A stretch of 64,000 bases of DNA from Pyrocephalus nanus (lineage: Eukaryota; Chordata; Aves; Passeriformes; Tyrannidae): positions 34,869,866-34,933,865 of the forward strand of contig CM076261.1 in the NCBI GenBank assembly GCA_038380795.1. The letters are read 5' to 3'. Shown here in pieces: positions 4,291-19,389 of the stretch; the stretch's first letter is position 1; each line of letters opens with the position of its first letter. Under the pieces are notes generated by a model, which saw only the letters and a list, made by a program, of their open reading frames with translations, had not been told where the DNA came from and made no database searches. The position numbers and the translations under genes were made by a program.

Positions 4291-4378
4291 GAACTTCTTA
4301 GTGAGGTAACTCAGAGAGGACAGAGTTTCAGAGAGGAAAGCTGAAGGAACTTGGAAAGCACAGCCAGGGGGTGTTCTG
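4291..4378 (+). repeat. Repeat-family module X, copy 1
   Basis: Begins at CTTCTTAGTGAGGTAACTC and runs through GAAAGCACAGCC. It closely matches 4684-4765 and 13026-13107. The spacing of about 390 bp to copy 2 suggests the X+Y pair was once a tandem unit. No coding frame is conserved between copies. The module name is mine and I do not recognise the family. Confidence 0.75.
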
Positions 4379-4683
4379 AGGGAGACGAGACGAGGCAGGG
4401 GCGGGGCGGTGGCTGCAGTGCCTCTTCTGTGCTGCTTTTCCCGCCCTGCCGAGGGGCGTGGTTTTCCGCCCCTCCCCTCAGCCCCCTCAGGCACGAAATC
4501 CCGCTCCTGCCGCGGTCCGTGAGGCGGGCGGAGGTGAAAGGCGCTTTGCAAAGGTTCTAAAGTGGTGCTGGAGTCGCCCTCGGGCAGATTTCGGGCTGTT
4601 ACACAGGTATTAAGCATTAAGCAGCGGCGTCACAGGGGCAGAGCAGGGTGTTTGGGTGAAGTTCGTGAGGGAAAATGTTTTTG
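4379..4683 (+). repeat. Repeat-family module Y, copy 1 (GC-box bearing)
   Basis: GC-rich segment with a GGGGCGGGGC GC box at 4398-4407, a CGCC/CCTGCC-rich stretch, then GGAGTCGCCCTCGGGCAGAT and a TTACACAGGTATTAAGCATT stretch. It aligns with 12713-13022 over its whole length with scattered substitutions and small indels. Its first third recurs at 5508-5612. The GC box (an Sp1/KLF-type motif) and CpG content are promoter-like, but no TATA box, initiator or transcript evidence is visible. Confidence 0.75.
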
Positions 4684-4829
4684 AGCTCCTTGGTGAGGTA
4701 ACTCGGAGAGGACAGAGAGTTTTCCAGAGGTAAAGCTGAGGGAACCTGGAAAGCACAGCGTGGGGATGTTCAGAGGCAAAATCTGAGGTAAAGTGTGAGG
4801 GACAGACTGAAATCTTGGAGGGGACATTT
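4684..4829 (+). repeat. Repeat-family module X, copy 2
   Basis: Starts at CCTTGGTGAGGTAACTCGG and runs to GGGACAGACTGAAA. It is nearly identical to 13023-13157 and is a longer version of 4291-4378. It passes directly into the CTGAGGGG minisatellite. Confidence 0.75.
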
Positions 4830-5507
4830 TGGAGGTGAAATATGTGGTGTCCTGTGAATCACTGAGGGGCAAGTGTGTGTCCTATGTTTCACTGAGGGGC
4901 GGGCTGGTGTCCCACATGTTGCTGAGAGGTTTGTGAGTGTTGCTGAGGGGGAGGCAGGTGCCCTGCGTGTAGCTGAGAGTCCGTGAGGGTCCCGGAGAGG
5001 CACTTGGGTGCCCCGAGTGTCAGTGAGGGGCTCTGAGGCTCACAGAGGAAGAGCTGGGTGTTCCATATATCACTGAGGAAGAAGTGTGTTCCTGAGGGGT
5101 TTGTGAGGGTCACATGAGGGTGAAAAGGGTCCCCTGAGGGGCTCTGAGAGTCGCTGAGGGGAAAGCAGGTGCACCCCGTTTGCCGCTGAGAGACATTGAG
5201 GGACAATTTGATGCCACGAGGATCACTGAGGAACTTTTAAGGTTATTAAGAGGCAGGTGGGTGTCCCGTGTGTCCGTGAGGGGAAGTGGGTGTTATTGTG
5301 TGTTACTGAGGGGATGGTAGGTCTCTCGCATGTTGCTGAGGGGGGAGGCAGGTGTCTGGTATGTCCCTGAGCATCTCTGAGGGGGAAGAGGGTGCCCTGA
5401 GGGGAAGGCAGATGACTCGTGTGTCCCTGAGGGGCTGTGAGGGACACAGGGTGGAAAAGGGTACCCTGAAGAACCACCGGGAAGCCATGAGGGTGCGCTG
5501 AGGGAGA
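4830..5507 (+). repeat. Degenerate CTGAGGGG minisatellite
   Basis: About fifteen diverged units of roughly 25-50 bp, each built on a GTGTCCCGTGTGT-like half followed by a TCACTGAGGGG-like half. Some units carry an extra CTGTGAGGGTC segment. Examples start near 4849, 4879, 4909, 4959, 5010, 5268 and 5297. Unit length and sequence vary strongly, so this is an old, non-homogenised array. Runs of open frame on the minus strand here come from the lack of stops in the repeat, not from a gene. Confidence 0.75.
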
Positions 5508-5612
5508 GACGGGGCAGGGGCGGGGCGGTGGCTGCTGTGCCTCTTCTGCGCTGCTTTTCCCGCCCTGCAGAGGGGCGCGGTTTTCCGCCACTCCCCTCAG
5601 CCTCCTCAGGAG
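5508..5612 (+). repeat. Repeat-family module Y, partial copy
   Basis: Matches the first third of module Y, with the GC box GGGGCGGGGC at 5517-5526, and ends at CCTCAGCCTCCTCAGG. It is truncated there and joined to a second copy of the minisatellite segment. Confidence 0.75.
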
Positions 5613-12268: not shown

Positions 12269-12553
12269 CTGGAGAAGAGAAGGCTTAGAGGTGACCTCAT
12301 CACTCTCTTCAACTACCTGAAGGGAGGTTATAGCCAGGTGGGGGTTGGTCTCTTCTCCCAGGCAACCAACAATAGGACAAGGGGACATGGGCTCAAGCTC
12401 TGCCAGGGGAGGTTTAGGTTAGATGTTAGGAAGAAATTCTTTACAGAGAGGGTAATCAGGCATTGGAACGGCCTGCCCAGAGAGGTGGTGGATTCACCAT
12501 CCCTGGAGGTTTTTAAACAGAGATTGGACGTGGCCCTTAGTGCCATGATATAG
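12269..12553 (+). pseudogene. CR1 ORF2 C-terminal fragment
   Basis: An uninterrupted frame of about 94 codons encodes the end of CR1 ORF2. Recognisable pieces in order are [57 protein letters not shown] and [12 protein letters not shown], followed by TAG. The catalytic reverse-transcriptase palm and the endonuclease lie upstream in full elements and are absent, so the product would be inactive. The absence of frameshifts suggests a fairly young or slowly decaying copy. Confidence 0.9.
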
Positions 12554-12614
12554 TAATTGGAGATGGATAAGGGGTTGGACTCGATGATCTTGGAGGTCTT
12601 TTCCAACCCAATCT

Positions 12615-12643
12615 ATTCTATGATTCTATGACTCTATGACTCT
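12615..12643 (+). repeat. CR1 terminal octamer tail
   Basis: Two ATTCTATG units, one ACTCTATG and a partial ACTCT, 29 bp in all. This is the characteristic CR1 3' terminus and fixes both the element's orientation (+) and its right boundary. Confidence 0.92.
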
Positions 12644-12712
12644 GAGGGACTGTGAGGCACACAGGGCGAGAAGGGTGCCCTGAAGAATCACCGGGAAGCC
12701 ATGAGGGTGCGC
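12644..12712 (+). repeat. Minisatellite segment resumed after the insertion
   Basis: GGACTGTGAGG, ACACAGGG, ACCGGGAAGCCATGAGGGTG and CGCTGAGGGAGA follow 5431-5505 base for base with few changes. It therefore continues the segment cut off at 5672 rather than starting a new repeat. Confidence 0.8.
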
Positions 12713-13022
12713 TGAGGGAGATGAGACGGGGCAGGGGCGGGGCGGTGGCTGCTGTGCCTCTTCTGCGCTGCTTTTCCCACCCTGCCGAGGGGCGAGGTTT
12801 TCCGCCACTCCCCTCAGCCTCCTCAGGCACGCAGTCCCTCTCCTGCTGCGCTCTGGTCCGTGAGGCGGGTGCAGGCGAAAGGCGCTTTGCAAAGGTCCTG
12901 AGGTGGTGCTGGAGTCGCCCTCGGGCAGATTTCAGGTTGTTACACAGGTATTAAGCATTAAGTGGCGTCACAGGGGCAGAGCAGGGTGTTTGGGTGAAGT
13001 TCGTGAGGGAAAATGTTTTTGA
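12713..13022 (+). repeat. Repeat-family module Y, copy 2 (GC-box bearing)
   Basis: Full-length match to 4379-4683, including the GC box GGGGCGGGGC at 12734-12743, GGAGTCGCCCTCGGGCAGAT near 12910 and the TTACACAGGTATTAAGCATT stretch near 12940. Differences are a few substitutions and short indels. It lies about 650 bp upstream of the macrosatellite and is the only CpG-rich, GC-box segment next to the array edge, so a promoter role is possible but unproven. Confidence 0.75.
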
Positions 13023-13157
13023 GCTCCTTGGTGAGGTAACTCGGAGAGAAGAGAGAGAGTTTTCCAGAGGTAAAGCTGAGGGAACTTGAAAAGCACAGCC
13101 ATGGGATGTTTTGAGAGAAGATCTCGAGTAAAGTGTCAGGGACAGACTGAAGAACAT
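13023..13157 (+). repeat. Repeat-family module X, copy 3
   Basis: Runs from CTCCTTGGTGAGGTAACTCG to GGGACAGACTGAAG and matches 4684-4829. Similarity between the two loci ends there. Confidence 0.75.
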
Positions 13158-13371
13158 GCGAAACTTGGGAAAACCTGAGTTACTCACCTTTTTTTTCCAG
13201 GCGACGTTCTGTGCAAAAAAATCTGAGATAATCTCTAGGGGATGTAAATGTAAATTATATTATTTGATGAAATCTCGGAGAAATAGCAGAGTCAGAGAAA
13301 TGAAAATCAGAAGTATCTTAGGAAACACAGTGCATGATACAAATTCTAAAATGTTTCCTCTGCTTTGTTAG
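13158..13371 (+). other. AT-rich transition with two splice-acceptor-like tracts
   Basis: Separates the X/Y family from the macrosatellite. It contains a nine-T pyrimidine tract ending in CCAG at 13200, and TTTCCTCTGCTTTGTTAG ending at 13371; both resemble 3' splice sites. An open frame of 71 codons (13156-13371 +) crosses the area, but the protein is not recognisable. Whether these acceptors are used cannot be told from sequence. Confidence 0.45.
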
Positions 13372-13503
13372 GAGCCCTTGGAGAAGAAACCAGAGGCGGA
13401 GAATGGGCAAGGACCCTCTGGGCAAAGGGACCTCCCTGGCATCCCCGGGGCAGGGATAGCGAAGAGTCCGGGGGGCACCTTCAGGCTGCCCCGGCCGGCT
13501 TAG
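13372..13503 (+). pseudogene. Diverged exon-like segment at the array edge
   Basis: Immediately after the acceptor-like TTTGTTAG, the sequence GAGC..GAGAAGA..CAGAGGC..TGGGCAAG aligns with 15323-15364 inside the repeat unit, which itself follows the acceptor-like CTCGTCAG. About 40 bp of the unit is missing here. From 13409-13414 onward it matches the array almost perfectly. In the frame of exon-like segment B the reading ends at TAG 13457-13459; a second frame ends at 13501-13503. It may be the ancestral single copy or a decayed edge unit. Confidence 0.5.
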
Positions 13504-13708
13504 CGCTGGGCGACCCCCCTGTAAGCAGGGCTGGGTCTTTGTGTTGCTTGTCGTCGGCCTTTTGCCCTCGTGCTCCTGAGGCTGCCCGGAGAGAGGCTGA
13601 AGCACCCTGTAAGCAGGGTGAGAGCCCCCGTCTCCGCACCCGAGGGGGGGAAACGGAGCTCTCCCGACCCCCGGCCCACCCTGTAAGCAGGGCAGGGCTT
13701 TTCCCCTT

Positions 13709-13722
13709 GGCACCTTGGTGCC
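13709..13722. repeat. Perfect 6-bp inverted repeat
   Basis: GGCACC and GGTGCC are separated by TT. Present in every unit at the same offset. Confidence 0.8.
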
Positions 13723-13945
13723 CGCTGGCGGCCCCTGGCCAGAGCGAGGCCCCTGCAGTCGGGGTGCGTCACAGCCTCTGCGCCTTGGCCAGCCGCGAAG
13801 CCCCTCAGCGCGTCGAGGCCCTTCTGGCCCGTGCGCAGCCCGGGGGCGGGTCTGAGGCTCTCCTCTCCTGCTCGACGGCAGACAGGGCTGGCTCCCCCCA
13901 CGTTGGCGCACAGAGCTCGCTCCCCCTTCTGGGACGTTCCCCCCC

Positions 13946-13992
13946 TTTGTGTCTTTGTGTCTTTGTGGGTGTGAGTGAGTGAGCAAGCGAGC
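13946..13992. repeat. (TTTGTGTC)n and (TGAG)n simple repeat in the unit
   Basis: Two TTTGTGTC units and one TTTGTGGG, followed by TGAG/CGAG tetramers. Copy number is identical in all complete units, which is unusual for a microsatellite. Confidence 0.85.
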
Positions 13993-14524
13993 TTGTCCTT
14001 TAGCCCCCGTAGAAACTAGAGAGCAGTGTAGCTTAGACTTCCCAGGAGGGAAAGAGGGGCTCTGTGCAGCAACCGGGGGCTGCCCTGTAAAGCCGCGGGC
14101 GGAGACACGGCCCGGCCTTGCCCCTCGTTCCCGAGGAGGGAGCGAAGCCCCTTAGTGGTGGCGCGGGCACCGTGACCCGGCTGTAGCCAGGGCCTGGGGT
14201 GCGTGCCCGCGCGGCGGGGCTGCCTGTCCTGGCTGGTGACGGGCCAGCGTGGCACGTCCCCCCCGCCCCCCACCCTGTCCTCGGGGCTGGGGCCCTGTAC
14301 CCCCGGCCTTGGGCCGTGTTGGGCCACCCTTGGGAGTGCCGGGCCTCAGGGGGGGCGGCCCCGTAAGTGGGGCTTTGTGCGTCCCCCCTGCTCGGCGGGC
14401 GGTTGGAGGGACCCCCCTGTAATCAGGCGGGTGTCCCGCGGGGTCCCCGGCCTTTCACAGGCGTGGGGCTGGGCGTGTGCCCTCCCTGTCCCCGGGGCTC
14501 ACCTGGAGGCCTTTAGGCCATGAG

Positions 14525-14545
14525 CTCCACTGCCTGGCAGTGGAG
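14525..14545. repeat. Perfect 9-bp hairpin in the unit
   Basis: Arms CTCCACTGC (14525-14533) and GCAGTGGAG (14537-14545) surround CTG. The adjacent GGCC-TTTA-GGCC at 14508-14519 gives two neighbouring hairpins. This is the strongest perfect stem I see in the unit. Confidence 0.85.
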
Positions 14546-14666
14546 TCTCCTTGCCCTTGCTGCGGGGGAAGGCCGAGCTCCGTGGCTCCCTGGGTGGGGA
14601 CCCGCCCGTAAGCGGGGTCTGGGTCTGGGAGCCTTTGTGCTCCCTCGACTGGCAGCCTGTGCGGGG

Positions 14667-14695
14667 CGACCGCCCCGTTAGCGGGGAGCGGGTCG
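14667..14695. repeat. Extended two-part hairpin around a TTAG palindrome
   Basis: The CCCCG-TTAG-CGGGG core (14673-14686) is enclosed by CGACC (14667-14671) and GGTCG (14691-14695), giving a longer stem with a small asymmetric internal loop. Confidence 0.75.
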
Positions 14696-14728
14696 GGTGC
14701 CCCCGGAGCGGAGAGAAGGAGCCTCCGT

Positions 14729-14742
14729 GGGCCCTTGGGCCC
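14729..14742. repeat. GGGCCC-TT-GGGCCC palindrome
   Basis: Perfect 6-bp inverted repeat with a 2-nt centre. GTGCCC/GGGCAC follows at 14770-14790 with a 9-nt loop. Confidence 0.8.
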
Positions 14743-14928
14743 AGGGCCCCCCTGTAAGTCGTGGAGTAAGTGCCCTGGAGTCCCGGGCACTTTGCGGTCC
14801 AGGCAGCGGCTGGAGCCCCCTGTAAGCAGGGCGGCAGCCTCCCTGACCGCTGGTTCGCATGCCCAGCTGCCTTTGCCCAGAGGGCCCGGCTCCCAGCAGC
14901 GGATGGGACCGCGCCGCGCGTCGCTGTG

Positions 14929-15159
14929 GTGAGTCAAAGTGCCGTTTGGAGGGTTTTGGGGGCGGGGTGGCCTGTGGGGGGGGCGGCTGGTGGCTTGGGG
15001 ATGTGCCTCTGGGGGTGCATGCCGGGGCCCGGTTTCCCTCCCGGGGAGGAGCTGGGGGTTGTGGGGCCCAAGTGCGTCCTCCTGCCTTGGCGGAAGCCGT
15101 CGCAGAAGAGAGCCAGAGGCATGGATGGCGTGGGACGGCGGCGCCGCCGTGGGAAGCCG
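14929..15159 (+). repeat. Internal duplication, copy A
   Basis: Begins at the donor-like GTGAGT and contains GGTGGCTTGG, GTCCTCCTGCCT and an arginine-rich exon-like end. It aligns with copy B (15160 onward) at an offset of 229-237 bp with small indels. Shared landmarks in order are the GTGAG donor, G-rich tract, TGGCTTGG, pyrimidine tract, GTCCTCCTGCCT, CAGAGGCA and GGCGTGGG. Confidence 0.7.
14951..14983 (+). other. G-run cluster with G-quadruplex potential
   Basis: Four G runs (GGG, GGGGG, GGGG and GGGGGGGG) with spacers of 4, 1 and 8 nt on the + strand, in a tract that stays G-rich to about 15240. Conserved in every unit; unit 3 has one G replaced by C at 18945. The 8-nt loop slightly exceeds the usual 7-nt search rule. 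Confidence 0.6.
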
Positions 15160-15405
15160 GTGAGGGGAGGCAAGCTGAACTTGGGGGGTGGTGCGGAGAT
15201 GTGGGGGTCCCGCGGGTGGGCAGGTGGTGGCTTGGACAGCTGCCTCTGGGTCCTAGCTTCCTTTCCTTCAGCGGAAGGAGTTGGAGCTCCTCAGTGCCAA
15301 CTGTGTCCTCCTGCCTCGTCAGGAGCTGTGTCGAGAAGACAGCAGAGGCACCGGCGTGGGCAAGAAGAGCGGCGGCTTGGAGCTGAAGAGGGGGCGCGAG
15401 AAGGG
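15160..15405 (+). repeat. Internal duplication, copy B
   Basis: Same order of landmarks as copy A, beginning at the donor-like GTGAGG. It has a better pyrimidine tract, ending in TTCCTTTCCTTCAG at 15271. Its end is the segment that reappears in diverged form at the array edge (13372). Confidence 0.7.
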
Positions 15406-17397
15406 CCCTCTGGGCAAAGGGACCTCCCTGGCATCCCCGGGGCAGGGATAGCGAAGAGTCCGGGGGGCACCTTCAGGCTGCCCCGGCCGGCTTAGCGCTG
15501 GGCGACCCCCCTGTAAGCAGGGCTGGGTCTTTGTGTTGCTTGTCGTCGGCCTTTTGCCCTCGTGCTCCTGAGGCTGCCCGGAGAGAGGCTGAAGCACCCT
15601 GTAAGCAGGGTGAGAGCCCCCGTCTCCGCACCCGAGGGGGGGAAACGGAGCTCTCCCGACCCCCGGCCCACCCTGTAAGCAGGGCAGGGCTTTTCCCCTT
15701 GGCACCTTGGTGCCCGCTGGCGGCCCCTGGCCAGAGCGAGGCCCCTGCAGTCGGGGTGCGTCACAGCCTCTGCGCCTTGGCCAGCCGCGAAGCCCCTCAG
15801 CGCGTCGAGGCCCTTCTGGCCCGTGCGCAGCCCGGGGGCGGGTCTGAGGCTCTCCTCTCCTGCTCGACGGCAGACAGGGCTGGCTCCCCCCACGTTGGCG
15901 CACAGAGCTCGCTCCCCCTTCTGGGACGTTCCCCCCCTTTGTGTCTTTGTGTCTTTGTGGGTGTGAGTGAGTGAGCAAGCGAGCTTGTCCTTTAGCCCCC
16001 GTAGAAACTAGAGAGCAGTGTAGCTTAGACTTCCCAGGAGGGAAAGAGGGGCTCTGTGCAGCAACCGGGGGCTGCCCTGTAAAGCCGCGGGCGGAGACAC
16101 GGCCCGGCCTTGCCCCTCGTTCCCGAGGAGGGAGCGAAGCCCCTTAGTGGTGGCGCGGGCACCGTGACCCGGCTGTAGCCAGGGCCTGGGGTGCGTGCCC
16201 GCGCGGCGGGGCTGCCTGTCCTGGCTGGTGACGGGCCAGCGTGGCACGTCCCCCCCGCCCCCCACCCCGTCCTCGGGGCTGGGGCCCTGTCCCCCCGGCC
16301 TTGGGCCGTGTTGGGCCACCCTTGGGAGTGCCGGGCCTCAGGGGGGGCGGCCCCGTAAGTGGGGCTTTGTGCGTCCCCCCTGCTCGGCGGGCGGTTGGAG
16401 GGACCCCCCTGTAATCAGGCGGGTGTCCCGCGGGGTCCCCGGCCTTTCACAGGCGTGGGGCTGGGCGTGTGCCCTCCCTGTCCCCGGGGCTCACCTGGAG
16501 GCCTTTAGGCCATGAGCTCCACTGCCTGGCAGTGGAGTCTCCTTGCCCTTGCTGCGGGGGAAGGCCGAGCTCCGTGGCTCCCTGGGTGGGGACCCGCCCG
16601 TAAGCGGGGTCTGGGTCTGGGAGCCTTTGTGCTCCCTCGACTGGCAGCCTGTGCGGGGCGACCGCCCCGTTAGCGGGGAGCGGGTCGGGTGCCCCCGGAG
16701 CGGAGAGAAGGAGCCTCCGTGGGCCCTTGGGCCCAGGGCCCCCCTGTAAGTCGTGGAGTAAGTGCCCTGGAGTCCCGGGCACTTTGCGGTCCAGGCAGCG
16801 GCTGGAGCCCCCTGTAAGCAGGGCGGCAGCCTCCCTGACCGCTGGTTCGCATGCCCAGCTGCCTTTGCCCAGAGGGCCCGGCTCCCAGCAGCGGATGGGA
16901 CCGCGCCGCGCGTCGCTGTGGTGAGTCAAAGTGCCGTTTGGAGGGTTTTGGGGGCGGGGTGGCCTGTGGGGGGGGCGGCTGGTGGCTTGGGGATGTGCCT
17001 CTGGGGGTGCATGCCGGGGCCCGGTTTCCCTCCCGGGGAGGAGCTGGGGGTTGTGGGGCCCAAGTGCGTCCTCCTGCCTTGGCGGAAGCCGTCGCAGAAG
17101 AGAGCCAGAGGCATGGATGGCGTGGGACGGCGGCGCCGCCGTGGGAAGCCGGTGAGGGGAGGCAAGCTGAACTTGGGGGGTGGTGCGGAGATGTGGGGGT
17201 CCCGCGGGTGGGCAGGTGGTGGCTTGGACAGCTGCCTCTGGGTCCTAGCTTCCTTTCCTTCAGCGGAAGGAGTTGGAGCTCCTCAGTGCCAACTGTGTCC
17301 TCCTGCCTTGTCAGGAGCTGTGTCGAGAAGACAGCAGAGGCACCGGCGTGGGCAAGAAGAGCGGCGGCTTGGAGCTGAAGAGGGGGCGCGAGAAGGG
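15406..17397. repeat. Macrosatellite unit 2
   Basis: M1 is G. A private C-to-T change at 17309 lies in the acceptor-like CTCGTCAG, a CpG transition that leaves the AG intact. Confidence 0.95.
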
Positions 17398-19389
17398 CCC
17401 TCTGGGCAAAGGGACCTCCCTGGCATCCCCGGGGCAGGGATAGCGAAGAGTCCGGGGGGCACCTTCAGGCTGCCCCGGCCGGCTTAGCGCTGGGCGACCC
17501 CCCTGTAAGCAGGGCTGGGTCTTTGTGTTGCTTGTCGTCGGCCTTTTGCCCTCGTGCTCCTGAGGCTGCCCGGAGAGAGGCTGAAGCACCCTGTAAGCAG
17601 GGTGAGAGCCCCCGTCTCCGCACCCGAGGGGGGGAAACGGAGCTCTCCCGACCCCCGGCCCACCCTGTAAGCAGGGCAGGGCTTTTCCCCTTGGCACCTT
17701 GGTGCCCGCTGGCGGCCCCTGGCCAGAGCGAGGCCCCTGCAGTCGGGGTGCGTCACAGCCTCTGCGCCTTGGCCAGCCGCGAAGCCCCTCAGCGCGTCGA
17801 GGCCCTTCTGGCCCGTGCGCAGCCCGGGGGCGGGTCTGAGGCTCTCCTCTCCTGCTCGACGGCAGACAGGGCTGGCTCCCCCCACGTTGGCGCACAGAGC
17901 TCGCTCCCCCTTCTGGGACGTTCCCCCCCTTTGTGTCTTTGTGTCTTTGTGGGTGTGAGTGAGTGAGCAAGCGAGCTTGTCCTTTAGCCCCCGTAGAAAC
18001 TAGAGAGCAGTGTAGCTTAGACTTCCCAGGAGGGAAAGAGGGGCTCTGTGCAGCAACCGGGGGCTGCCCTGTAAAGCCGCGGGCGGAGACACGGCCCGGC
18101 CTTGCCCCTCGTTCCCGAGGAGGGAGCGAAGCCCCTTAGTGGTGGCGCGGGCACCGTGACCCGGCTGTAGCCAGGGCCTGGGGTGCGTGCCCGCGCGGCG
18201 GGGCTGCCTGTCCTGGCTGGTGACGGGCCAGCGTGGCACGTCCCCCCCGCCCCCCACCCCGTCCTCGGGGCTGGGGCCCTGTCCCCCCGGCCTTGGGCCG
18301 TGTTAGGCCACCCTTGGGAGTGCCGGGCCTCAGGGGGGGCGGCCCCGTAAGTGGGGCTTTGTGCGTCCCCCCTGCTCGGCGGGCGGTTGGAGGGACCCCC
18401 CTGTAATCAGGCGGGTGTCCCGCGGGGTCCCCGGCCTTTCACAGGCGTGGGGCTGGGCGTGTGCCCTCCCTGTCCCCGGGGCTCACCTGGAGGCCTTTAG
18501 GCCATGAGCTCCACTGCCTGGCAGTGGAGTCTCCTTGCCCTTGCTGCGGGGGAAGGCCGAGCTCCGTGGCTCCCTGGGTGGGGACCCGCCCGTAAGCGGG
18601 GTCTGGGTCTGGGAGCCTTTGTGCTCCCTCGACTGGCAGCCTGTGCGGGGCGACCGCCCCGTTAGCGGGGAGCGGGTCGGGTGCCCCCGGAGCGGAGAGA
18701 AGGAGCCTCCGTGGGCCCTTGGGCCCAGGGCCCCCCTGTAAGTCGTGGAGTAAGTGCCCTGGAGTCCCGGGCACTTTGCGGTCCAGGCAGCGGCTGGAGC
18801 CCCCTGTAAGCAGGGCGGCAGCCTCCCTGACCGCTGGTTCGCATGCCCAGCTGCCTTTGCCCAGAGGGCCCGGCTCCCAGCAGCGGATGGGACCGCGCCG
18901 CGCATCGCTGTGGTGAGTCAAAGTGCCGTTTGGAGGGTTTTGGGCGCGGGGTGGCCTGTGGGGGGGGCGGCTGGTGGCTTGGGGATGTGCCTCTGGGGGT
19001 GCATGCCGGGGCCCGGTTTCCCTCCCGGGGAGGAGCTGGGGGTTGTGGGGCCCAAGTGCGTCCTCCTGCCTTGGCGGAAGCCGTCGCAGAAGAGAGCCAG
19101 AGGCATGGATGGCGTGGGACGGCGGCGCCGCCGTGGGAAGCCGGTGAGGGGAGGCAAGCTGAACTTGGGGGGTGGTGCGGAGATGTGGGGGTCCCGCGGG
19201 TGGGCAGGTGGTGGCTTGGACAGCTGCCTCTGGGTCCTAGCTTCCTTTCCTTCAGCGGAAGGAGTTGGAGCTCCTCAGTGCCAACTGTGTCCTCCTGCCT
19301 CGTCAGGAGCTGTGTCGAGAAGACAGCAGAGGCACCGGCGTGGGCAAGAAGAGCGGCGGCTTGGAGCTGAAGAGGGGGCGCGAGAAGGG
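17398..19389. repeat. Macrosatellite unit 3
   Basis: M1 is A (18305), the first of the every-third-unit A copies. Private changes are A at 18904 and C at 18945; the latter interrupts the run of five G downstream of the first donor-like site. Confidence 0.95.

Follow-up and report, generated by a model that had tools for sequence, protein, structure and literature searches.

The window (the whole stretch of 64,000 nucleotides of Pyrocephalus nanus DNA that was analysed) is best read as carrying a macrosatellite-like avian repeat with an internal palindromic motif, regular in its spacing and putative in its function. The palindromes are real, old and beyond chance. A preliminary description of this DNA had seen in matched base changes of their arms the mark of a selected stem, but these changes are too few to count and sit at the most mutable class of sites, CpG. 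Our fuller account of the array, which we consider about evenly poised between right and wrong, is that a short motif (~30 bp) spread early in the history of the unit and thereby gave rise to the palindromes, and that high CpG/TpG/CpA turnover at both arms would have produced the T-A and C-G forms with no selection on pairing. That array turnover multiplied a single set of about nine sites into 25 copies can be read directly from the units. Four canonical sites are perhaps mildly constrained besides, and selection on pairing is at most weak and limited to few sites.

The Array and Its Left Flank

The array lies on the plus strand between 13409, an approximate left edge, and 64000, and runs past the right end of the window. 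Its period is exactly 1,992 bp, and it consists of 25 full units from 13422 followed by 779 bp of another, all head to tail. There are no indels among the 25 full copies, each of which carries 0 to 7 differences from the consensus, and 31 columns are variable. Certain variants are common to several units, which points to exchange between units rather than to an assembly artefact. The consensus unit has 70% GC and 141 CpG dinucleotides (observed/expected 0.58). Among the 31 variable columns, 16 are transitions in which a CpG is lost, although CpG bases account for 282 of the 1,992 positions of the unit. Near the end of the unit, 14977-15121 and 15214-15350 form an old duplicate pair (68%, E 5e-7) that contains the exon-like blocks B and C discussed below, with part of the introns upstream of them.

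The left flank is AT-richer than the unit and includes, at about 12270-12640, what we take by eye to be a CR1-type tail, which points to a bird source, as do the protein relatives described below. A GC-rich, promoter-like block (CpG observed/expected ~0.6) occurs there in three copies (4362-4811, 5412-5610 and 12628-13151) with 89-92% identity. The last copy ends about 260 bp ahead of the array, and the block may be a candidate promoter of an array transcript. Directly left of the first unit, at 13373-13421, a stretch that reads TTAG|GAGCCC resembles a diverged block C by eye; when the left flank was compared with the unit by BLAST, no match appeared at E 0.05.

Relatives in Other Birds

Three rounds of searching with translations of the unit's ORFs brought up 14 homologous proteins (3, 2 and 11, the last including the 2 of the second). 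They include proteins of the manakins Manacus candei (P0004, P0006), Pseudopipra pipra (P0005, P0007), Chiroxiphia lanceolata (P0013), the cowbird Molothrus ater (P0014) and the kakapo Strigops habroptila (P0009). P0013 and P0014 have weak E-values (5.4e-4 and 3.6e-3), yet give long frame-tolerant alignments. Since the relatives align to the unit in several frames, on both strands and with frame shifts, the ORFs of the unit are probably incidental. None of nine translated ORFs, eight of which overlap the array, had a match in Pfam. The kakapo and Chiroxiphia proteins each contain two part-unit copies, so the tandem arrangement extends beyond P. nanus. To judge by these homologs, the unit is an old avian repeat. 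Two exact patterns searched in viral_contigs gave 0 and 0 matches, and profile A2 gave 25 and 27 pattern matches in viral_contigs and genome_contigs, among which tblastn found no relative.

The Palindromes and Their Excess Over Chance

The canonical palindrome has the form CCCTG-TAAG-CAGGG. Its sequence, CCCTGTAAGCAGGG, is found at 103 places in the window, four per unit, first at 13517, 13605, 13679 and 14818. In the first unit these sites are S1 (13517..13530, recurring every 1,992 bp), S2 (13605..13618), which extends to seven pairs at 13603-13620, S3 (13679..13692) and S8 (14818..14831). The C-G versions (14359, 14604 and 14673) and the one with a TAAT centre (14415) agree with their first description. 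Of these, S4 (14359..14372, CCCCG-TAAG-TGGGG) has four Watson-Crick pairs and a G-T, S4b (14415..14428, CCCTG-TAAT-CAGGC) has four pairs, S5 (14604..14617, GCCCG-TAAG-CGGGG) also has four, and S6 (14673..14686) reads CCCCG-TTAG-CGGGG. S7 (CCCTGTAAGTCGTG, 14750..14763) consists of the left arm and centre without a matching right arm and contains one variable column (14761). A further consensus site with a TCCT centre, CCCCG-TCCT-CGGGG (14273..14286), contains two variable columns; these are uncompensated CpG-losing changes in units 0 and 10, with the partner base unchanged. None of the 31 variable columns falls inside the eight two-armed sites with TAAG, TTAG or TAAT centres.

A consensus unit has 5 perfect stems of at least 5 pairs whose centre is of the form T[AT]A[GT], compared with 0.015 in 200 dinucleotide shuffles, none of which reached 5. 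This count, far above the shuffles, favours the reading of the palindromes as functional stems, in which the arms would be constrained and the centre free to vary, whether as hairpins in RNA or as protein-bound dyads in DNA; on all the evidence weighed below we hold that reading to be somewhat unlikely. The excess is narrower for hairpins at large: the total is 34 per consensus unit against 23.8 ± 5.2 (7 of the 200 shuffles had as many), and stems of at least 6 pairs stay within the ordinary range (9 against 7.3; 65 of 200). A weight matrix finds 12 sites per unit at a score of at least 8, all within 13517-14831, against 0.69 in shuffles, a count that is partly circular in that the matrix was derived from these same sites.

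Hairpins with 4-nt loops of any kind are also in excess, with 13 per consensus unit against 5.1 ± 2.3 in shuffles, of which 1 in 200 reached 13. Such an excess is compatible with a mutational origin, in which template switching during replication at a hairpin copies one arm from the other and so keeps the arms matched without selection. The mechanism is a known one: instantaneous compensatory changes in rRNA genes are described as enriched in hairpins with 4-nt loops (56.0% versus 42.1%) and in CTTG loops (PMC8794818). Two other hairpins of the unit have CTTG centres as well. The TAAG family, however, supplies 5 of the 13 hairpins with 4-nt loops, so that the excess outside the family is small, and we regard template switching as rather improbable. 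Further hairpins of the unit lie at 13709-13722, 14728-14743, 14525-14545 and 15135-15150; besides the two with CTTG centres they include one of nine pairs (CTCCACTGC/GCAGTGGAG) and ACGGCG-GCGC-CGCCGT.

Matched Base Changes and CpG Turnover

The palindromes had been counted as repeating about 200 times across the window. They are indeed present, but they are not independent, since the same nine or so sites recur in each of 25 copies. The sample for covariation therefore comes down to ten sites with seven distinct forms. At the C-G sites, where pairing was said to be kept, the full five pairs exist at 14673, while 14359 and 14604 have four Watson-Crick pairs each. Changes on both sides occur in one pair of the five; pairs 1 and 2 include unpaired cells and pair 5 includes G-U cells. 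The covariation score of the ten sites (0.248) is no higher than in shuffles (0.196 ± 0.058; 119 of 500 as high), which counts against functional stems and leaves the claim of covariation as selection on the stem without a basis. Paired cells over the same ten sites amount to 88.6%, against 86.0% in shuffles (128 of 500 as high). The structure does exceed slid versions of itself, because it was read from these very sites.

The changed pair is position 4, at which CCC[CG]..[CG]GGG alternates with CCC[TG]..[CA]GGG, so that each arm carries a CpG. Across the relatives, CpG columns change at 0.239 in the arms and 0.224 in the flanks, as against 0.061 in the other arm columns. At S5, seven of nine aligned relatives have R where the codon in the window encodes G, at a position from which the left arm is not visible; the G of the window therefore looks derived, which is the reverse of CpG decay.

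Site Conservation Among the Relatives

Conservation was tabulated for 48 site-by-protein peptides, hand-picked from the 14 proteins. Forty of these 48 hand-picked peptides are compatible with arms identical to the consensus, a point in favour of functional stems. Stem changes without compensation in relatives, named beforehand as evidence against selection on pairing, do occur, if in part: five Watson-Crick pairs are impossible in 3 of the 48 cases, namely S2 (13605) in P0003, S5 (14604) in P0010 and S7 (14750) in P0005. P0014 also looks unpaired by eye at 13605. P0007 at S2 and P0004, P0006, P0007 and P0011 at S7 are ambiguous, as serine and arginine codons leave bases open. Sites that appear lost or gapped, by eye only, are S1 in P0002, S2 and S8 in P0014, S1 in the first P0013 copy and S8 in the upstream P0009 copy. 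The centre, described as constant, proved otherwise: in 10 of the 48 cases the peptide forces a centre unlike that of the window (S1 in P0003 and P0014, S5 and S6 in P0008-P0010, S8 in P0008 and P0010).

Rates of change were compared over aligned segments of at least 6 codons with at least 35% identity, and the remainder was dropped. With the window included, visible change per opportunity was 0.091 in the arms, 0.123 in the centre and 0.161 in the flanks, and 21 of 1,653 random placements were as low as the arms. Non-CpG arm columns changed at 0.061 (20 of 2,519 placements as low), and identical residues numbered 136 of 211 over the palindromes, 564 of 995 near them and 497 of 1,011 far from them, wrong-frame stretches included. 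All three of these tests are biased, because the sites were chosen for their match in the window. A preliminary table of 40 hand-picked peptides (arms 0.059, centre 0.104, flank 0.263) is biased by that choice too. When the relatives are compared with each other and the window is left out, the arms change at 0.146 and the flanks at 0.188; the arm rate is not significantly below its null (0.178 ± 0.056; 426 of 1,435 placements as low), and the disappearance of the slowdown weighs against functional stems.

Still, at the four canonical sites, with each lineage weighted once, the arms (0.045) are slower than the centre (0.134) and the flank (0.177), and these same sites fold, both of which speak for functional stems. 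The comparison of arm and centre (Fisher p=0.049) is post hoc, which lessens that support; the other five sites, a split made after seeing the data, have 0.155 in the arm, 0.120 in the centre and 0.184 in the flank. From these alignments the arms of the canonical sites may be under weak constraint, as hairpin or as dyad.

Folding of the Unit

Compared with shuffled controls, the palindrome region is only slightly more stable. The mean z over 25 windows of 150 nt per strand is -0.47 on the plus strand and -0.71 on the minus strand, against -0.04 and 0.06 (10 windows each) in the remainder of the unit; so slight a gain in fold energy is a point against functional stems. The canonical stems mostly exceed a stem probability of 0.7 in context. 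On the plus strand, S1 reaches 0.5-1.0, S2 about 0.9 or more (about 0.07 on the minus strand with 200-nt flanks), S3 about 1, and four of the S8 pairs about 0.85-0.95; four pairs also form in context at S4 and at S4b. S5, S6 and S7, by contrast, form no stem on the plus strand in context, with a probability near 0 at S5 and of 0 at S6, which again argues against functional stems. S5 and S6 are C-G sites that bear much of the covariation argument. The window had no match at gathering score to the Rfam 15 families, and ARAGORN found no tRNA-like unit in 12900-17500.

Exon-Like Blocks and Probable Splicing

Three exon-like blocks are recognized on the plus strand, their status as exons being judged from the relatives. 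Block A (14563..14928) ends before GTGAGT and is conserved in manakin gene models, block B (15094..15159), of uncertain left edge, ends before GTGAGG, and block C (15323..15512) follows CGTCAG and extends into the next unit. The manakin proteins P0005, P0006, P0007 and P0013 exit the unit at 14923-14928 and re-enter it at 15085-15094, and splice signals of the window agree with these exits, with GTGAGT after 14928, GTGAGG after 15159 and CGTCAG before 15323. The array unit is probably transcribed and spliced.

It had also been proposed that the GTAAG within the palindrome resembles a 5' splice site. This idea has one concrete lead: in the P0013 alignment, 13525 is followed directly by 14791 and 14368 by 14809, and each jump begins at most 6 nt from a palindrome GTAAG (13521 and 14363). 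On the P0013 model the palindrome-rich stretch would be an intron that separates block C of one unit from block A of the unit after it. P0007 and P0014, however, read through S1 and this stretch, the 10 forced centres among the 48 cases run counter to a conserved GTAAG, and the gene models may lack RNA support. The remaining long jumps of our home-made aligner depend on doubtful short segments. That the palindrome GTAAG acts as a 5' splice site or as a U1 decoy is, on balance, very unlikely.

Spacing and Origin of the Palindrome Family

The sites are regularly spaced. With the 12 matrix sites, 9 of the 11 spacings fall inside a band 33 wide, which none of 4,000 random placements matched; with the nine sites alone, 6 of 8 do so, and 5 of 4,000 random placements had as many. 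This regularity favours functional stems and counts against the repeat reading, which does not account for it. The intervals are mostly 56-88 bp over 1.3 kb, and neither a recognisable sub-repeat nor chance explains this spacing.

An ancestral minisatellite of ~72 bp was considered and set aside. The spacing fits it; unlike spacers, a flat masked autocorrelation and unplaced CCTT words stand against it. The spacers between sites show no detectable mutual homology beyond the control, the masked autocorrelation of the unit is flat at 66-78, and CCTT words follow the sites at a set distance no more often than chance allows (best word 295 of 5,000, with five words tried). The 10 nt adjoining the sites do resemble each other (0.41 versus 0.30; as high in 2 of 1,000 sets with shuffled gaps and in 12 of 458 shifted ones), whereas the 30-nt flanks are barely alike (49 of 1,000 and 25 of 458), with local alignment scores not above the null (494 of 1,000 and 91 of 458). 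Given the unlike spacers, the flank alignment at null level and the flat autocorrelation, a sub-repeat of ~72 bp is not demonstrated, and we retain it as a bare possibility. Local duplicates exist around some sites, at 13592-13637 and 14805-14850 (78%) and at 14583-14633 and 14650-14701 (74%, E 0.04). S5 and S6 lie inside the latter, weak duplication and are therefore possibly not independent.

Comparison With Known Tandem Arrays

The MHM repeat of the chicken Z chromosome has a BamHI unit of ~2.2 kb and gives rise to a female-specific non-coding RNA. Both MHM and the present array are avian tandem repeats with units of about 2 kb, but the period of 1,992 bp and the lack of GGATCC in the consensus speak against their identity. 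In layout and composition the array resembles the mammalian macrosatellites DXZ4 and D4Z4, which are likewise long head-to-tail arrays of kilobase-size units, rich in GC and CpG, with short ORFs of no known homology (PMC3218863). The human DXZ4 unit is 2,994 bp long with 62% GC and 186 CpG (PMC3218863), against 1,992 bp, 70% GC and 141 CpG here. Macrosatellite units are defined as 2 to >12 kb long (PMC3218863); the present unit lies at the lower edge of that range and shares the richness in GC and CpG. The present array differs in being avian, and the consulted part of that paper mentions no palindrome family for DXZ4 or D4Z4 (PMC3218863). On the chicken W chromosome, HINT1W (5,648 bp, 52 copies) is another avian tandem array with raised GC, and it carries a transcription unit (PMC9974502). 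The present unit differs from it in length and, with 0 of 9 ORFs matching in Pfam, shows no known gene family. Judged by titles and abstract openings, no 2-kb GC-rich bird array with such palindromes is named among the literature matches listed.

Implications

Two points bear on how such arrays are read. Firstly, tandem copying lets very few sites pass for hundreds of independent witnesses of covariation. Secondly, where each arm of a palindrome contains a CpG, T-A and C-G pairs can arise without selection. A bolder idea, which we regard as a long shot, is that an old transcribed bird macrosatellite carries a regular ladder with about one CCCTG-N4-CAGGG stem per 72 bp, in RNA or DNA, with constrained arms and a free centre, on which one protein would dock multivalently; the first stem would also be the 5' splice site and so determine whether the RNA retains the ladder. 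If the ladder were kept in many birds, it would offer a testable case of a repeated RNA or protein platform among avian repeats of a kind that has received little study.
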